A stretch of 64,000 nucleotides of DNA from Rhodoferax sp. (lineage in GTDB: Bacteria > Pseudomonadota > Gammaproteobacteria > Burkholderiales > Burkholderiaceae_C). Of the stretch, positions 3,513 through 10,705 are shown piece by piece. The stretch is from positions 1 to 64,000 of the forward strand of contig JAIFLV010000013.1 in the NCBI GenBank assembly GCA_020048895.1, given 5' to 3'. Position 1 is the first letter of the stretch. Each line of letters begins with the position of its first letter. The notes beneath the pieces are model-generated. The model was not told the DNA's origin, searched no databases, and saw nothing but the letters and a program-made list of their open reading frames with translations. Position numbers and translations under genes: made by a program.

Positions 3513-5537
3513 ATGAGTGTTTTGATGCATCCTTCGTTGTGGTTGCATCTGGACTGGGTGCTGGGGGTGGTGGTGGCCTGGTTGCTGATTGGTGTGCTGG
3601 GGGTGCTGGCGTTGCGGCGCTTTCGGCTGGTGGCAATCGTTTTATTCCCCGCGGGAGCCCTGGTGTCGCTGGTGCTGATGGCCGTGGCGCTCAGTGCTGC
3701 CTTTAGCGAGGTGCAGGTGGCGGTATTGCCGCTGGGCTTGCCCCAGTTGCCATTTCATCTGCGCTTGGACAGTCTGTCAGCCTTCTTTCTCTTGCTCATC
3801 GGAGGGGTTTCGGCGGGCGTTTCGGTGTTCGCGGCGGGCTATTTTCGCCAAGGCGAGGGTACGCCGCCCGGCCTGATCTGCCTGGAGTACCACGTGTTTC
3901 TGGCCAGTATTGCCATGGTGGTGCTGGCTGACGACGCCTATGTGTTCATGGTGGCGTGGGAGACCATGGCCTTTTCCTCGTTCTTCCTGGTCATGGCCAA
4001 CCACCGCATTCCTGAGATCCGGCAAGCCGGCTACCTGTATGTGCTGGTAGCGCACATAGGCGCTTTAGGAATTTTGTTGTGCTTTGGACTGTTGCAGGCC
4101 AATACGGGCGACTATACCTTCGCCAATATGCGTGCGCAGCATCTCACGCCCTTCTGGGGTTCGGTGGCATTCGTCTTGGCGGTTTTCGGCTTTGGTGCCA
4201 AGGCCGGCTTGTTGCCGCTGCATGCCTGGTTGCCCGAAGCGCACCCGGCCGCCCCGTCACCATTCTCAGCACTGATGAGTGCCGTGATGCTGAAGATTGC
4301 GCTCTACGGCATCCTGCGCGTGTCCTTTGATTTGCTGCAAACACGCATCTGGTGGTGGGGCGTGCTGCTGATGGCCGTGGGCCTGGCCACCGCGCTGTTT
4401 GGCGTGGTGTTCTCCACCATCCAGGTGGAGATGAAGCGCCTGCTGGCGTATTCGTCGATTGAAAACATCGGACTGATCTGCGCCGGACTGGGCTTGTCGC
4501 TGCTGTTTTCGGCCTATTACATGCCAGCCCTGTCGGCACTGGCTCTTACTGCTTCGCTGTACCACATGATGAGCCATGCGTTTTTCAAGAGCCTGCTGTT
4601 TTGCAGCACAGGCGCGGTGATGCACGCGACCGGAGAACGCAGTCTGGGCAAGCTCGGCGGATTGCTGCGCTTTATGCCCTGGGTGGCCTGGCCAACCCTG
4701 GTGGGGGCCTTGTCCTGTGCCGGGTTGCCACCGTTTGGCGGCTTTGTCGCCGAGTGGCTGTTGCTGCAGAGTTTTCTGTTTACCACCGGGTTTCCCAGCC
4801 CGACGCTGGACATGCTGGTGCCGGTCATGGCCGCGCTCATTGCGCTCATTGCGGCCCTGTCCGGCTTCACCATGGTCAAGTACTTTGGCGTGATTTTTCT
4901 TGGCCAGCCCCGGGAAAACAAGTTGACCTCGGCCCACGATGCCGGTGCCTGGGAGCGCCTGGGCATGGTGTGGCTCGCGCTGGGGTGCGTTTTTCTGGGA
5001 CTGTTTCCCAACCAGATGATTGCGCTGATCGACCCGGTCACCCAAAGCCTGGTTCACGCCGGCATGGCCCACACGGTGGCAGAAAACGGCTGGTTGCTGG
5101 TGCCGGTGCATGTGGATCGTGCCAGCTATGCGCCCGCCATTTTTCTGCTGGGTGTGCTGGCCTGTGTGGGGCTCACGTTCGTGCTGGTGCGCAGGCTCTA
5201 CCACGGGCGCTTGCGCCGCGGCCCTGCGTGGGACTGCGGCCACCCGTGGCAGACCGCGCGCATGCAGGACACGGCGGAAGGCTTTGGTCAACCGATTCGC
5301 CAGATTTTTGAGCCATTCTTTCGCATCGAACGCCATCTGCCCAGCGCCTTTGATGCAGAACCCCATTACCGCGTGACCGCGCAGGATCCCTTGTGGTTCT
5401 GGCTGTACCTGCCGATCGCGCGGTTGGTGGAGCGCATCTCCAGGTTTGTAGGTTTGCTGCACCAGGGTCGTATTGCGGTATACCTGATTTACAGTTTTGT
5501 CACGCTGGTCGTGGTGCTTCTGGTGGTGCAGCGATGA
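3513..5537 (+). CDS. hyfB: hydrogenase-4-like proton-pumping subunit B (NuoL/HyfB family)
   Basis: Large multi-pass membrane subunit of the Mrp/NuoL antiporter type, about 674 residues from this start, close to the usual HyfB length. Visible family landmarks are DDAYVFMVAWETMAFSS, KAGLLPLHAWLPEAHPAAPS, MKRLLAYSSIENIG, LYHMMSHAFFKSLLF and LPPFGGFVAEWLL, with lysines and histidines in the broken helices that carry protons. The open frame extends upstream to a TTG at 3408, but ATG 3513 or ATG 3525 gives an N-terminus that goes straight into the first helix (MHPSLWLHLDWVLG); I chose 3513. It overlaps hyfC by ATGA. First gene of the Ehr-type operon; it would couple redox chemistry at HyfG/HyfI to proton or sodium movement. 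Confidence 0.9.
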   Translation: MSVLMHPSLWLHLDWVLGVVVAWLLIGVLGVLALRRFRLVAIVLFPAGALVSLVLMAVALSAAFSEVQVAVLPLGLPQLPFHLRLDSLSAFFLLLIGGVSAGVSVFAAGYFRQGEGTPPGLICLEYHVFLASIAMVVLADDAYVFMVAWETMAFSSFFLVMANHRIPEIRQAGYLYVLVAHIGALGILLCFGLLQANTGDYTFANMRAQHLTPFWGSVAFVLAVFGFGAKAGLLPLHAWLPEAHPAAPSPFSALMSAVMLKIALYGILRVSFDLLQTRIWWWGVLLMAVGLATALFGVVFSTIQVEMKRLLAYSSIENIGLICAGLGLSLLFSAYYMPALSALALTASLYHMMSHAFFKSLLFCSTGAVMHATGERSLGKLGGLLRFMPWVAWPTLVGALSCAGLPPFGGFVAEWLLLQSFLFTTGFPSPTLDMLVPVMAALIALIAALSGFTMVKYFGVIFLGQPRENKLTSAHDAGAWERLGMVWLALGCVFLGLFPNQMIALIDPVTQSLVHAGMAHTVAENGWLLVPVHVDRASYAPAIFLLGVLACVGLTFVLVRRLYHGRLRRGPAWDCGHPWQTARMQDTAEGFGQPIRQIFEPFFRIERHLPSAFDAEPHYRVTAQDPLWFWLYLPIARLVERISRFVGLLHQGRIAVYLIYSFVTLVVVLLVVQR

Positions 5538-6484
5538 GCGGTCTGGGGGTACTTTCACAACTGCTGGCGCTGCTGACCGCGCTGCTGCTGGCGCCCCTGT
5601 TGTCAGGCTGGGTCAGCATGTGGCGGCACTGGCTGCAGAACAAGTCGGCACCGGGCCTGTTGCAGCCCTACCGCATGCTGCACAAGTTGTTCCACAAGGA
5701 CTCGGTGATGGCAGAGCACGCCTCGGCGCTGTTTCGCTTTGCGCCTTATGTGATTTTCGGCTGCATGGCGCTGGCCAGTGCCATCGTGCCAACGTTGTCG
5801 ACCGATCTGCCCCTATCACCGGCAGCCGATGCCATTGCGTTGGTGGGTCTGTTTGCGTTGGCACGGGTGTTCATTTCGCTCGCCGCCATGGACGTGGGCA
5901 CCGCCTTTGGTTCGCTGGGGGCACGGCGCGAAATGCTGGTGGGCTTTCTGGCCGAGCCGGCATTGCTGATGGTGCTGTTTTGCGCCTCGATGATTTCGCG
6001 CTCGACGTCACTCACCACGATGGTGGAGACGCTGGCGCATCGCGACCTGGCGATTTACCCCAGCCTGCTGCTGGCCGGGGTGGCGTTTGCCATGGTGTCA
6101 CTGGCCGAGAACGCGCGCGTGCCGGTGGACAACCCGGATACGCACCTGGAACTGACCATGGTCCACGAGGCGCTGATCCTGGAGTATTCTGCGCGGCACC
6201 TGGCGCTCCTGGAGTGGGCTGCCAGCCTGAAGTTGTTCACCTACTCCTGCATCGGACTCGCACTGTTTTTTCCGTGGGGTGTGGCCGAGGCCAATGCGCC
6301 CGTGGCGCTGCTGTTGGCATTGCCGGTCCTGGTGTTCAAATTGGCCCTGGGTGGCATCGTGCTGGCGGTGATCGAAACGGCGAGTGCCAAGATGCGGATC
6401 TTTCGGGTGCCGGAGTTTCTGGGCACGGCCTTCCTGCTGGCGGTGATCGGTCTGTTGGTGAATGTGTTGTTGGGGGTGGGATGA
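5534..6484 (+). CDS. hyfC: hydrogenase-4-like subunit C (NuoH family)
   Basis: A 316-residue integral membrane protein of the NuoH/HycD/HyfC family, the subunit that docks the peripheral arm onto the membrane arm. Seen are the early cytoplasmic loop QPYRMLHKLFHKDSV (analogue of the NuoH loop that contacts the quinone region), a conserved acidic loop RVPVDNPDTHLELTMVHEA, and about eight hydrophobic segments. The start ATG overlaps the hyfB stop and the stop overlaps hyfE, both as ATGA, indicating translational coupling. Confidence 0.93.
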   Translation: MSGLGVLSQLLALLTALLLAPLLSGWVSMWRHWLQNKSAPGLLQPYRMLHKLFHKDSVMAEHASALFRFAPYVIFGCMALASAIVPTLSTDLPLSPAADAIALVGLFALARVFISLAAMDVGTAFGSLGARREMLVGFLAEPALLMVLFCASMISRSTSLTTMVETLAHRDLAIYPSLLLAGVAFAMVSLAENARVPVDNPDTHLELTMVHEALILEYSARHLALLEWAASLKLFTYSCIGLALFFPWGVAEANAPVALLLALPVLVFKLALGGIVLAVIETASAKMRIFRVPEFLGTAFLLAVIGLLVNVLLGVG

Positions 6485-7146
6485 ACCACTACGCACCCCA
6501 GCTCATCAATCTGTCGGCCACGCTGATTTTGCTGCTGTCGTTTGCCATGATCTCGCAGCGGCGCATTGTGTCCCTCATCCATCTGTTCACCATGCAGGGT
6601 GTTGTGCTGGTGGCGGCATCGTTCCTGCTCGGGTTTGTCACGCAGCAACCTGACCTGTATGTGTCGGGGGCCTTGACGCTGGTGCTCAAGGTGTTCTTCA
6701 TTCCCTGGATGCTGCACCGGATGATCAGAAAGCTCAACGTGCGCTGGGACGTGGAGACGCTGCTCAATATTCCCACCACCATGCTGGTCGGCATTGGCCT
6801 CGTCATCTTCGCGTTCAGCCTGGTATTGCCAATTTCCCGTCTGTCGCACTCGATTGCCAGCGGATCGCTGGGTATTGCACTGGCCTGTGTGCTGCTGTCG
6901 TTCATGATGATGATCGTGCGCTCCAAGGCCATTCCGCAGGTGATCGGATTCCTGTCGATGGAAAACGGGCTGATCTTTGCAGCCACCACCGTGACCAACG
7001 GTATGCCCATGATTGTGGAGTTTGGTATCGCACTGGATGTGCTGGTGGCGGTGCTGATTCTGGGAGTGTTCATGTTCCAGATCCGGGAGAAGTTTGACAG
7101 TCTGGACATCCACAACCTGGAAAAACTCAAGGACGACTGCGCATGA
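6481..7146 (+). CDS. hyfE: hydrogenase-4-like subunit E (NuoK-like)
   Basis: A 221-residue multi-pass protein of the HyfE family; the C-terminal half resembles NuoK (MENGLIFAATT, then a hydrophobic helix with VEFGIALDVLVAVLILGVF). HyfE has no counterpart in E. coli hydrogenase-3 and is diagnostic of hydrogenase-4/Ehr-type modules. The true start is the ATG at 6481, overlapping the hyfC stop; a longer open frame upstream in the same register is only the shadow of hyfC. The stop overlaps the hyfF start. Confidence 0.92.
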   Translation: MNHYAPQLINLSATLILLLSFAMISQRRIVSLIHLFTMQGVVLVAASFLLGFVTQQPDLYVSGALTLVLKVFFIPWMLHRMIRKLNVRWDVETLLNIPTTMLVGIGLVIFAFSLVLPISRLSHSIASGSLGIALACVLLSFMMMIVRSKAIPQVIGFLSMENGLIFAATTVTNGMPMIVEFGIALDVLVAVLILGVFMFQIREKFDSLDIHNLEKLKDDCA

Positions 7147-8597
7147 GTCCCTTGTTCTTTGCGCTGGGTTTTCCGCTGTTGGGGGGAGTGTTGTTGGCGC
7201 TGGTGGGGCAGCGCGGTTATGCGCGCGATGTGAACGTAGGTTTTAGCCTGCTGACTTTTCTGGCCGCCTGCGCCATGACCGCACAGGTGGTTCGCGATGG
7301 GCCGCAGTTGGTGTGGGACAAACAGTTTTACGTAGACCCGCTCAACGTCTTTCTGGTGACCCTGACGGCCTTTGTGGGGCTCACGACGGCCATCTTTTCG
7401 CGCCCCTATATGCGCGTGGAGCAAGACCACGGCAAGATGACACCGGTGCGCATGCGGCTGTACCACAGCATGTACCAGCTGTTCAGCTTCACCATGCTGC
7501 TGGCGCTGACCACCAACAACCTGGGCATCATCTGGGTGGCCATGGAGGCGGCCACACTCACCACCGTACTGCTGGTCAGTGTGTATCGCACATCGGCCAG
7601 TCTGGAAGCGGCGTGGAAGTACTTCATCCTGTGCGGCGTGGGCATTGCCCAGGCACTGTTTGGCACCATCCTTTTGTATATGGCAGCGGATCGGGTGCTT
7701 GGCTCCGAGCACGCCACACTCTTGTGGACCAGCCTGAACACCATCAAGAGCCAACTCGACCCCAACATCATGACGCTCGCCTTTGTGTTTCTGCTGGTGG
7801 GCTATGGCACCAAGGTCGGGCTGGTGCCGCTGCACAGCTGGCTGCCCGATGCGCACGCCGAAGGCCCAACGCCCGTGTCGGCGGTGCTCTCCGGTCTGTT
7901 GCTCAACGTGGCGATGTACGCGCTGCTGCGTTGCAAGGTGCTGGCGGATGGCGCACTCGATTCCGCCATTGCCGGGCAACTGATGATGGGCTTTGGTCTG
8001 CTGTCGGTTACCGTGGCGGCGTTTTTCCTCTCGCGCCAAAAAGATGTGAAGCGCATGTTCTCGTATTCCAGCATCGAGCACATGGGTTTGATCACCTTTG
8101 CCTTTGGCATGGGCGGGCCGCTGGCCAACTTTGCCGGTCTGCTGCACATGACGGTGCATTCGCTGGTGAAGTCCGCGATCTTCTTCGCCGTGGGGCATGC
8201 TACCCAAAAGGCCGGCACCCAGGTGATGGCCGACATTCGCGGGCTCATCAAGGTGAATCCGACCGTGGGCTGGGGTCTGATGGTGGGCACCATGGCCATT
8301 TTGGGCATGCCGCCGTTTGGCGTGTTCGCCAGCGAGTTCCTGATTTTGACTACCGCCATGCGTGAGCAGCCGTGGGCGACTCCGTTCCTATTCCTGGCCT
8401 TGGGCGTGGCGTTTGCATCGATGCTGGTGCGGGTGCTGCCCATGGTGTTTGGCGACACCATCCTCAAACCGTTGGCCCATCCGCCAGCCTTGATTCCGGT
8501 GTTTGTGCACCTTGGGCTTGCGCTGATGCTGGGTTTGTACATTCCCCCCTATTTGAATGGCTGGTATGTGCAGGCTGCTGCCATGCTGGGAGGCTAG
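7143..8597 (+). CDS. hyfF: hydrogenase-4-like subunit F (NuoN/NuoL-like antiporter)
   Basis: A second proton-conducting antiporter-type subunit, 484 residues. It shows FVFLLVGYGTKVGLVPLHSWLPDAHAEGPTP-type sequence (the conserved helix 7-8 lysine and histidine), VKRMFSYSSIEHMG and LLHMTVHSLVKSAIFF. Together with HyfB the complex has at least two potential ion channels. HyfD, a third antiporter subunit in E. coli hydrogenase-4, has no counterpart here. The start overlaps the hyfE stop (ATGA); the stop is 3 bp before hyfG. Confidence 0.93.
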   Translation: MSPLFFALGFPLLGGVLLALVGQRGYARDVNVGFSLLTFLAACAMTAQVVRDGPQLVWDKQFYVDPLNVFLVTLTAFVGLTTAIFSRPYMRVEQDHGKMTPVRMRLYHSMYQLFSFTMLLALTTNNLGIIWVAMEAATLTTVLLVSVYRTSASLEAAWKYFILCGVGIAQALFGTILLYMAADRVLGSEHATLLWTSLNTIKSQLDPNIMTLAFVFLLVGYGTKVGLVPLHSWLPDAHAEGPTPVSAVLSGLLLNVAMYALLRCKVLADGALDSAIAGQLMMGFGLLSVTVAAFFLSRQKDVKRMFSYSSIEHMGLITFAFGMGGPLANFAGLLHMTVHSLVKSAIFFAVGHATQKAGTQVMADIRGLIKVNPTVGWGLMVGTMAILGMPPFGVFASEFLILTTAMREQPWATPFLFLALGVAFASMLVRVLPMVFGDTILKPLAHPPALIPVFVHLGLALMLGLYIPPYLNGWYVQAAAMLGG

Positions 8598-8600
8598 GCC

Positions 8601-10187
8601 ATGAAGATTGCTGGGCTGGACGTTGAATTTTCTGCTCTGGCAGCACCGGTGCCGGTCTGGCATGCCCTGGTGAGCGCGCCGCAGTGGCTGACCGCTGCAG
8701 ATCTGGTGCGGGAGCAGGGCGGCCGCTTGCTCGCGTTGTGGGCCGGTTCTGCTATCAAAACGGAAGCGATTCACGCATACGCAGCGGGCGCCAGAGCCAT
8801 ATTTGTTACGTATGTCACGATCGATGGCCTGTTTTGGCTAGAGCTGCCCTTGGTTCCGGCGGACGGTGTGTGTAGCTACCCGGACCTGACCTTTGCGTTT
8901 CCCGCGGCAGCGCGTATGCAGCGCGCCGCTGCCGACTTGTCGGGTGTTGTTGCCACAGGCGCTCAAGACCAGCGACCCTGGCTCAACCACGGCGCATGGG
9001 CCACAGACCACTATCCCCTGTTGCAGGATCCGCGCAATCTGCCGCTGCCAGAGCCCGGTGCGCTGATCGACTACCCGTTCGTGCCCGTGTCAGGCGACGG
9101 CGTACACGAGATTCCTGTGGGGCCGGTGCACGCCGGCATCATCGAGCCGGGGCACTTCCGGTTTTCCATTGTGGGTGAGAAGGTGTTGCGCCTGGAACAG
9201 CGTCTGGGTTACACCCACAAGGGCATTGAGCAACGCATGACCCAGTTGGAACCGCTGCAGGCACATCGGTTGGCGGGGCGGGTTTCGGGCGACTCGACGG
9301 TGGCCTATGCCTGGGCCTACTGCATGGCGCTGGAAGCAGCAACGCACACCACAGTCCCGACGCGTGCGGCCTGGTTGCGTGCGCTCATGCTGGAGCGCGA
9401 ACGTATCGCCGCCCATCTGGGCGACTTGGGCGCCTTGGGCAACGACGCGGCCTTTGCCTTTGCGCTGGCGCAGTTTTCCAGACTGCGGGAGGACTGGGTA
9501 CGCGGCTCCAAAGCTGCCTTTGGCCACCGCTCCATGATGGACTGTGTTGTGCCGGGCGGCGTTCTGCAGGACTTGGACCTCGCCCAGGTCGTGCCCATGC
9601 TGGCCAGTTGCGATGCGCTGGAGTCCGACGTACGCCGGTTGCGGGGCATTTTTGATTCCCATGCCGGCCTGCAAGACCGTTTTCTGACCACCGGTCGCGT
9701 GATGCCTGCGCTGGCAAGCCAATTGGGGCTCACCGGACTGGCCGGGCGAGCCAGCAGCCAAAGTTGGGATGTGCGCTGCGACCATCCGTTTGTGCCGTAC
9801 GACCGGTTGGCAGTCAATATGGCAACCCACCACAACGGCGATGTCGCGGCGCGTGTGGCGGTGCGGTTCGATGAGGTGCTGGAGTCGCTGCGGCTGATTC
9901 GGCGCATCGTGACGGAGATGCCTCAAGGCCCCGTTGCCAGTGCATTGAAGTTCGATGCGCAGAGTGCCAGGGGCGCGGGCTGGGTGGAAGGCTGGCGTGG
10001 CGAGATCTTTGTGGCGCTGGAGTTGTCGGGAGCCGACGAGGGCCACTGCATCGGGCGCTGCCACCTCCATGACCCTTCCTGGCACAACTGGCCAGTACTG
10101 GAGCATGCCATCCTGGGCAACATCGTGCCGGACTTTCCGCTCATCAACAAGTCGTTCAACCTCAGCTACTCGGGGCAGGACCTATGA
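8601..10187 (+). CDS. hyfG: hydrogenase-4-like large subunit (NuoCD/HyfG family) lacking NiFe ligands
   Basis: A 528-residue protein with a poorly conserved NuoC-like N-terminus (about 1-165) and a NuoD/HyfG-like remainder (GPVHAGIIEPGHFRFSIVGE, RLGYTHKGIEQRM, ERERIAAHLGDLGALGND). In true group 4 NiFe hydrogenases the metal is held by R-x-C-G-x-C and a C-terminal D-P-C-x-x-C. Here the first site reads RVSGDS (227-232) and the second SFNLSYSG (518-525), so all four cysteines are gone. The protein therefore cannot bind NiFe as known hydrogenases do and fits the Ehr group described between complex I and group 4 hydrogenases. Residues ~50-70 are encoded by what looks like a copy of the interspersed repeat. 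Electron partner unknown. Confidence 0.9.
   Translation: MKIAGLDVEFSALAAPVPVWHALVSAPQWLTAADLVREQGGRLLALWAGSAIKTEAIHAYAAGARAIFVTYVTIDGLFWLELPLVPADGVCSYPDLTFAFPAAARMQRAAADLSGVVATGAQDQRPWLNHGAWATDHYPLLQDPRNLPLPEPGALIDYPFVPVSGDGVHEIPVGPVHAGIIEPGHFRFSIVGEKVLRLEQRLGYTHKGIEQRMTQLEPLQAHRLAGRVSGDSTVAYAWAYCMALEAATHTTVPTRAAWLRALMLERERIAAHLGDLGALGNDAAFAFALAQFSRLREDWVRGSKAAFGHRSMMDCVVPGGVLQDLDLAQVVPMLASCDALESDVRRLRGIFDSHAGLQDRFLTTGRVMPALASQLGLTGLAGRASSQSWDVRCDHPFVPYDRLAVNMATHHNGDVAARVAVRFDEVLESLRLIRRIVTEMPQGPVASALKFDAQSARGAGWVEGWRGEIFVALELSGADEGHCIGRCHLHDPSWHNWPVLEHAILGNIVPDFPLINKSFNLSYSGQDL
8750..8811 (+). repeat. interspersed ~57-bp repeat, copy 2 (inside hyfG)
   Basis: Reads GCTATCAAAA, then GATTCACGCA, then GGGCGCCAGAGCCATATTTG, matching the block order of the intergenic copies at 3114 and 57968. 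It is read in frame as part of the variable NuoC-like N-terminal region of HyfG. The middle block is more diverged than in the intergenic copies. Confidence 0.55.
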
Positions 10188-10705
10188 TTTGGCGTGTATT
10201 GCATCAGATTGGCAAGACCGGTATCCGTACCGAGGCTGCGCCTGATATTGGCGAAAAGGCAGAGGCCGAGGCAACCCAGATCCAGCGCGCCTTGCTCGAC
10301 ATTCTGGGCCAGGCGCTGACCATTCGGCAGGTGGACGCCGGGTCGTGCAACGGCTGCGAGCTCGAGATCCACGCGCTGGGCAACCCCTACTACAACATTG
10401 AGGGGCTGGGCATCAAGTTTGTCGCCAGCCCACGCCATGCGGACCTGCTGCTGGTCACCGGCCCGGTGTCACGCAATATGGAGATGGCACTTCAGCGCAC
10501 CTATGACGCCACCCCTGACCCCAAACTGGTGGTCGCTGTGGGCGACTGCGGGTGTGACGGTGGCATTTTCGGTGAGAGCTATGCCAGCTGTGGCAAGGTC
10601 TCCAACGTCATCCCCGTTGACGAAGCCGTTGCTGGATGCCCGCCGGAGCCACTCGAAATTCTGCGCGGCATTTTGCGGGCCGTGCGCAGGCGCGTGCGGT
10701 CCTAA
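10184..10705 (+). CDS. hyfI: hydrogenase-4-like small subunit (NuoB/HyfI family)
   Basis: A 173-residue NuoB-like subunit that carries the 4Fe-4S cluster next to the large subunit. The ligand set is intact: SCNGCE (C55, C58), GDCGCDGG (C122 region) and AGCPPEP (C152). So electron transfer into HyfG is preserved although HyfG has no NiFe site. The ATG overlaps the hyfG stop. Last gene of the operon; no HyfA or HyfH ferredoxin-like subunit and no hydrogenase maturation gene is found in the window. Confidence 0.94.
   Translation: MIWRVLHQIGKTGIRTEAAPDIGEKAEAEATQIQRALLDILGQALTIRQVDAGSCNGCELEIHALGNPYYNIEGLGIKFVASPRHADLLLVTGPVSRNMEMALQRTYDATPDPKLVVAVGDCGCDGGIFGESYASCGKVSNVIPVDEAVAGCPPEPLEILRGILRAVRRRVRS

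Follow-up and report, generated by a model that had tools for sequence, protein, structure and literature searches.

A hydrogenase-4-like complex without NiFe ligands: almost certainly an Ehr complex and very probably of one kind with Azorhizobium Hyq

Introduction

Six genes at positions 3513-10705 of a 64,000-nucleotide stretch of DNA (the window) encode an Ehr/Hyq-type complex of six subunits that shares its ancestry with group 4 hydrogenases and with complex I. Its large subunit is free of NiFe ligands, its membrane arm comprises NuoL-, NuoH- and HyfE-like subunits and its small subunit holds a single cluster; with these features the complex is almost certainly of the Ehr type and not a NiFe enzyme, which is where an earlier note on this DNA had placed it. 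Membership is judged from these features, the published Ehr sequences being known to us by description.

Ehr is an already known family, widespread and poorly understood, which the window complex joins. As described in the available parts of the reports on Geobacter, Nitrospira, Sulfobacillus and candidate phyla, Ehr complexes are likewise homologues of group 4 hydrogenases and complex I without NiFe ligands, and likewise possess NuoL-like, HyfE-like, large and small subunits (PMC7894505, PMC4378227, PMC10284858). Their function is called unknown in passages of PMC10284858, PMC12342949 and PMC4378227, and HydDB counts Ehr among the families that do not metabolise H2 (PMC5037454).

Results

The window operon follows the gene order B-C-E-F-G-I (Table 1). 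Four of its five junctions overlap by 4 bp (ATGA) and a gap of 3 bp separates hyfF from hyfG, so that the translational coupling throughout claimed in the earlier note holds at every junction except that one. The hyfB-like reading frame is open from 3408, and the start given here is our choice. NCBI models name the membrane subunits hydrogenase 4, scoring 901.9 bits on the hyfB-like product (cut-off 667), 892.6 bits on the hyfF-like product (cut-off 543) and 96.4 bits, below the cut-off of 136, on the hyfE-like product; NCBIfam models score the hyfC-like product under their cut-offs. The cluster contains B, C, E, F, G and I only, with no hyfA, hyfD or hyfH, and no regulator reading frame was found 5' of it. 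The operon is adjoined by scpA and panB, housekeeping genes that recur beside the beta relatives, and the relatives place the window among Rhodoferax-like Comamonadaceae.

Table 1. Positions of the operon genes and HyfG sites in the window.
Feature	Position	Strand	Model match or remark
hyfB-like antiporter-type subunit (EhrA/HyqB kind)	3513..5537	+	NCBIfam hydrogenase 4 subunit B
hyfC-like (NuoH-like) membrane anchor	5534..6484	+	Pfam NADHdh, E 3e-31
hyfE-like membrane subunit	6481..7146	+	NCBIfam hydrogenase 4 membrane subunit; kept in relatives
hyfF-like antiporter-type subunit	7143..8597	+	NCBIfam hydrogenase 4 subunit F
hyfG-like large subunit (EhrL/HyqG kind), fused NuoC- and NuoD-like parts, without NiFe ligands	8601..10187	+	
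RVSGDS replacing RxCGxC, residues 227-232	9279..9296	+	
D282, aligned with NuoCD D325	9444..9446	+	
SFNLSYSG replacing SLDPCxxC, residues 518-525	10152..10175	+	gene end 3 residues on
hyfI-like small subunit (EhrS/HyqI kind)	10184..10705	+	Pfam Oxidored_q6; one [4Fe-4S] cluster site

Alignment of the 528-residue HyfG with E. coli HyfG, HycE and NuoCD bears out the reading that both metal-binding motifs are replaced: HycE C241, C244, C531 and C534 fall on S229, S232, S522 and G525. The four cysteines were also looked for elsewhere in HyfG by alignment and were not found. Its seven other cysteines (91, 241, 315, 337, 393, 483 and 487) are not conserved as a set and include no CxxC pair, and the best-conserved cysteine column of the family, C487, is occupied in only 100 of 126 sequences, which rules out relocated NiFe ligands. 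An inability of the host to make NiFe sites can likewise be set aside: elsewhere in its genome (91.4% complete) it encodes NuoD, HypD and two NiFe large subunits of the ordinary type, bearing RLCGIC and DPCLSC, an internal control indicating that NiFe enzymes are present where this host needs them.

The C-terminal end points the same way. NiFe large subunits often carry a C-terminal tail that a protease cuts off (PMC7654741, in the part available). HycE runs 32 residues past R537, whereas HyfG, like E. coli NuoCD, ends at the residue aligned with R537; stopping at the mature end of HycE, it makes no maturation tail. Termination three residues past the second motif is shared by 79 of 80 relatives, the remaining one (L071) running off its contig. 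The fold matches that of HycE (7z0s_E, TM-score 0.78) at 28-29% identity to the hydrogenase-4/formate hydrogenlyase large subunits HyfG and HycE. An AlphaFold model reached pTM 0.83 with low confidence in the pocket, and for that reason no distances were taken from it.

The relatives are the best 80 of 280 encoding stretches from a contig scan. Their hyfG frames run uninterrupted for 491-544 residues and are complete in 79 cases, and their gene order is the same as far as each contig reaches. Counting the window, the first motif reads RVSGDS in 65 of 81 sequences, RVSGDT in seven, RISGDS in six, and RVSGDA, RVAGDS and RVCGDS in one each; the second reads SFNLSYSG in 75, SFNLSYAG in three, and SFNLDYSG and SFNLAYSG in one each, one row being truncated. 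The recurrence of the replacing motifs across 81 sequences indicates that the change is more than chance. In one beta relative (L034), roughly 2.6 kb of additional DNA separates hyfF from hyfG (L034:3240-5884).

For pocket residues, a set termed Ehr1 was assembled from the window, 79 of the 80 relatives (L071 left out) and 46 other Pseudomonadota sequences, 126 in all, and compared with ten NiFe and five Nuo sequences; two long-branched rows, L164 and L165, were dropped before the Ehr1/Ehr2 alignment. D231, K517, N520 and G525 are invariant in Ehr1 (126/126), and N516 and D282 are each present in 125. None of D231, K517, N520, G525 and N516 is shared by any NiFe (0/10) or Nuo (0/5) sequence compared; residues of this sort, conserved within the Ehr branch only, are what the earlier note had suggested looking for. 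The D282 position is Asp in all five Nuo sequences and Phe in all ten NiFe sequences. The residues H284, E437, R395 and R478, named for the HycE proton path in the available part of PMC9474812, are retained in 126/126 Ehr1 sequences; the position of the HycE canopy residue D529 is Asn in 126/126 and Asp in Ehr2. A quick tree set the window's group apart from the NiFe and Nuo rows only, its long branches making deep placement unsafe.

Key residues of other subunits are kept as well. In HyfI the cluster cysteines C55, C58, C122 and C152 occur in 80/80 relatives, in agreement with the claim that they are intact, and the pump residues of HyfB, the Glu of WETMA and the Lys of GAKAG, occur in 67/67. 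For hyfG, dN/dS ranged from 0.06 to 0.40 (median 0.25) over 209 non-independent pairs with dS of 0.05-0.9, and the medians of the other five genes were 0.12-0.21; the membrane subunits are better conserved than HyfG among the relatives. With open relatives, a conserved operon and pocket residues kept in 126/126, the complex is maintained and not in decay, as had been claimed, and by this conservation HyfG reads as a maintained site with changed chemistry. At the second motif, an alpha clade (e.g. L129; 37 of 126 sequences) has SFNCSYSG, in which a cysteine immediately precedes the site of the lost third ligand; in the beta clade this residue is Leu.

Among 398 Pseudomonadota genomes, 62 encode Ehr1 (match of at least 397 bits, the partial match G144 left out), 47 of them represented in the alignment and the remainder counted by score; the NiFe type is found in ten, from which eight sequences were read. 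The maturase HypD occurs in 10/10 NiFe-type genomes versus 23/62 Ehr1 genomes. A search for it found none in the other 39, nor in 26 of 47 good-quality Ehr1 genomes (at least 90% complete, at most 5% contaminated). HypD is nevertheless commoner with the complex than without it (23/62 vs 71/336, p 0.009, phylogeny ignored), and nifD above cut-off was found in 11/62 versus 29/336 (p 0.04, phylogeny likewise ignored). Because just 11 of the 62 hosts have nifD, recycling of nitrogenase H2 cannot be the general role. In a genus sample of 80 genomes, Ehr1 occurred in six (one a partial match), Ehr2 in five and both in two, with no NiFe type above cut-off.

Ehr2 is a second ligand-poor class, seen in five genomes of the same genus (L157:4039-11251, L166, L167, L168 and L169); ICGDS and SYCGND are among its motifs, and its sequences end in SFDLSYCGNDL. 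The very divergent L164 and L165 (family f50) have the ends RSSFGILSTGVDL and ARLGLSVAGADQ, without NiFe cysteines, and are perhaps further Ehr classes.

To survey the neighbourhood, E. coli proteins were compared by tblastn with 107 Ehr1 flanks, 89 of which held at least 5.3 kb upstream and at least 2 kb downstream of hyfG. HycB, HyfA, HycH, HycI, a piece of HyfR, HypA and HypB were found beside none of the 107 copies, although every one of these proteins matched at least two of the four control loci, a set to which E. coli itself contributed two. Ferredoxins like HycF and HyfH appeared in nine and eight flanks, 2.8-10.7 kb past the hyfG start and outside the operon, and the HyfD matches in 106 flanks are antiporter cross-matches. 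NuoE was found in no flank and NuoF in one, 11 kb away, the controls holding neither nuoE nor nuoF. Of 128 neighbours picked, 119 were scanned, helix-turn-helix (16) and cupin (7) proteins being the commonest. A single cluster and the lack of a linked input module together imply an electron partner that is soluble or encoded elsewhere. In Ehr2, where a HycF-like match occurs in all five loci, the small subunit of L157 has a ferredoxin domain N-terminal to Oxidored_q6, a fusion that shows where such a partner can dock.

Discussion

The window complex shares subunit fold and order with hydrogenase-4 and formate hydrogenlyase and lacks their ligands, maturation tail and HyfA/HyfD/HyfH-type subunits. 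Together with the missing HycI and the 39 of 62 Ehr1 genomes in which no HypD was found, this upholds the claim that either name would be a wrong annotation. Public labels for Ehr1 subunits do mislead: orthologous large subunits are entered as NADH-quinone oxidoreductase subunit C, nickel-dependent hydrogenase large subunit or hydrogenase expression protein HypE. Complex I (NuoCD, NuoB, NuoH, NuoL/M) resembles the window complex in its freedom from NiFe ligands, its C-terminal end and the Asp at D282. In contrast, the window operon includes no NADH module genes, and the quinone His and Tyr of complex I (Nqo4 H38 and Y87 in the available text of PMC7684303) correspond to I181 and G230 of HyfG.

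We consider that the window complex is probably a redox-driven pump, a reversible, ion-pumping oxidoreductase. For its reaction we put forward tentatively, at somewhat under even confidence, the transfer of electrons from a soluble carrier to quinone. A soluble one-electron carrier, ferredoxin or flavodoxin, would dock on HyfI, and its electrons would cross the single HyfI cluster and reach an acceptor, small or hydrophobic and in the simplest case quinone, seated in the former NiFe pocket, where the S-G-D-S and N-K-S-F-N motifs would hold it. The reaction would be coupled via HyfC to HyfB and HyfF; run backward, it would spend the ion gradient and make reduced ferredoxin. The D282 shared with NuoD and the retained proton-path and pump residues support a carrier:quinone reaction. 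It is weakened by the Ile and Gly in place of the quinone His and Tyr, and by the invariant Asn at the canopy position, since non-protonatable canopy mutants of complex I are reported to be impaired in quinone reduction (PMC9474812, in the part available). The absence of a ferredoxin or flavodoxin gene linked to the window operon also counts against it, as do the low confidence of the AlphaFold model in the pocket and the H2 phenotypes of published Hyq mutants (PMC2930871, PMC3357923, as far as their text was available) considered below.

Several other explanations merit comparison with a carrier:quinone pump. A formate or other dehydrogenase encoded elsewhere might feed HyfI, an arrangement proposed for Riflemargulisbacteria and Saganbacteria (PMC6349859) and in keeping with the greater abundance of Geobacter Ehr proteins on formate (PMC7894505), both as given in the text available. 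We judge it unlikely here: HycB/HyfA-like linkers lie beside none of the 107 copies, and no recurrent dehydrogenase is found among the 25 commonest families of the 119 neighbours, a survey of the operon flanks only. An ion or solute transporter whose redox arm is structural or regulatory would agree with the single cluster, the lack of a linked donor and the better conservation of the membrane subunits; it would need neither the cluster cysteines nor the invariant polar residues of the pocket, and we hold it rather unlikely. Pyrococcus MBS shares with the window complex a kinship to group 4 and a departure from hydrogen chemistry, and the reduction of its substrate takes place at the proximal cluster (PMC7684303, available part). 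A similar reduction of sulfane sulfur (polysulfide) is nevertheless very improbable for Ehr1, which is the reverse of MBS: by the same partial source, MbsL keeps two of the four ligand cysteines and has lost the proton path, whereas in Ehr1 the path is retained and not one of the four cysteines is conserved. Decay of a hydrogenase after ligand loss, in whose favour we found nothing, is refuted by the open frames of the relatives, the hyfG dN/dS values and the conserved replacing motifs, and is scarcely conceivable.

A further explanation comes from Azorhizobium caulinodans, whose hyqRBCEFGI is a NifA-controlled seven-gene operon named for its similarity to the hyf genes (PMC2650096, available part). 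Its six structural genes share the order B, C, E, F, G, I with the window operon. HyqG is described as having 504 residues, neither CxxC motif and conserved Cys-258, -491 and -497, and HyqI as having conserved cysteines 55, 58, 112 and 152 (PMC3357923, available part). The large subunit of R. johnstonii 3841 has exactly 504 residues with C259, C491 and C497, in an operon HTH-B-C-E-F-G-I on pRL11, and its small subunit has C55, C58, C122 and C152; all 17 alpha rows listed, when numbered backward from 504, likewise carry C491 and C497. From the order of the genes, the protein length and the numbering of the residues, Hyq and Ehr are very probably complexes of one kind. Unlike Hyq, the window operon has no hyqR; no NifA/sigma54 pair was found upstream of it, in a scan run without a positive control, and nifD had no match in its 91.4% complete genome. 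The same scan found no such pair in 35 upstream regions, ten of them from nifD genomes (three loci had no upstream stretch). The Ehr literature searched for hyq or Azorhizobium, and the Hyq literature searched for Ehr, held no mention of each other, and the two may have been joined before.

If Hyq is an Ehr complex, its mutants bear on whether an Ehr complex could act as a NiFe-free H2:quinone oxidoreductase, making or oxidising H2 at or beside the [4Fe-4S] cluster without nickel. In the published text available, H2 escapes from nodules of the hyq hup double mutant alone (27 vs 0.30-0.36 umol per g per h), and a hup/hyp-deleted strain and one species without hup/hyp are said to recycle H2 still (PMC2930871); under less than 1 uM O2, the hyq hup mutant gave about one-fifth of the H2 of the hup mutant, 14,000 vs 61,000 pmol H2 per 10^9 cells per min (PMC3357923). 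The retained proton path to the old site agrees with such chemistry. On the other side, the published deletions, as described there, take out all seven genes including the regulator hyqR, another nif-linked H2 source persists in the double mutant, and a cell-free assay of isolated Hyq activity was not at hand for its authors (PMC3357923); no purified activity backs the phenotypes. Furthermore, the conserved cysteines of HyqG are G280, I515 and L521 in the window, no cysteine is family-wide, and nifD was detected in no more than 11 of the 62 host genomes, the window's own not among them. We regard NiFe-free H2 chemistry as improbable for the window complex. The sequence evidence would be better fitted by a Hyq that sets the ferredoxin/quinone redox state governing other H2-handling enzymes. 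The earlier note had called the substrate simply unknown, with H2 chemistry out; its rejection of a NiFe annotation stands, and the Hyq mutants, so far as their reports were available, leave the link to H2 in dispute. The statement in the available text of PMC2930871 that hyq is generally absent from non-diazotrophs is contradicted by the nifD count.

As a member of its family the window complex is ordinary; its interest lies in two disagreeing literatures that can now be tested against each other. Joining Hyq to Ehr gives access to a tractable bacterium for which deletion mutants, a reporter strain and measured H2 phenotypes exist, and it exposes a direct conflict between H2 chemistry excluded by sequence (Ehr) and H2 chemistry inferred from genetics (Hyq). 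The survey narrows the question, the complex being common in genomes without detected HypD and mostly without nifD. That Ehr and Hyq form one family including an H2-active enzyme without a NiFe centre or Hyp maturases is, in our estimation, quite improbable; if true, the motifs S-G-D-S and N-K-S-F-N would line a pocket, linked to the [4Fe-4S] cluster, in which H2 reacts, and a fourth hydrogenase type would join [NiFe], [FeFe] and [Fe].

Two features of the other loci concern the DNA just 5' of the operon. Small helix-turn-helix or helix-turn-helix-cupin regulators recur upstream, lying directly 5' of many alpha operons (helix-turn-helix at L131:3789-4100, helix-turn-helix-cupin at L127:14240-14791), and those of the alpha operons are likely hyqR or a stand-in for it. 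In some small-genome alphas, an additional antiporter-like gene is located just 5' of the operon (L151:1923-4061, also L126 and L146), which would lengthen the membrane arm.
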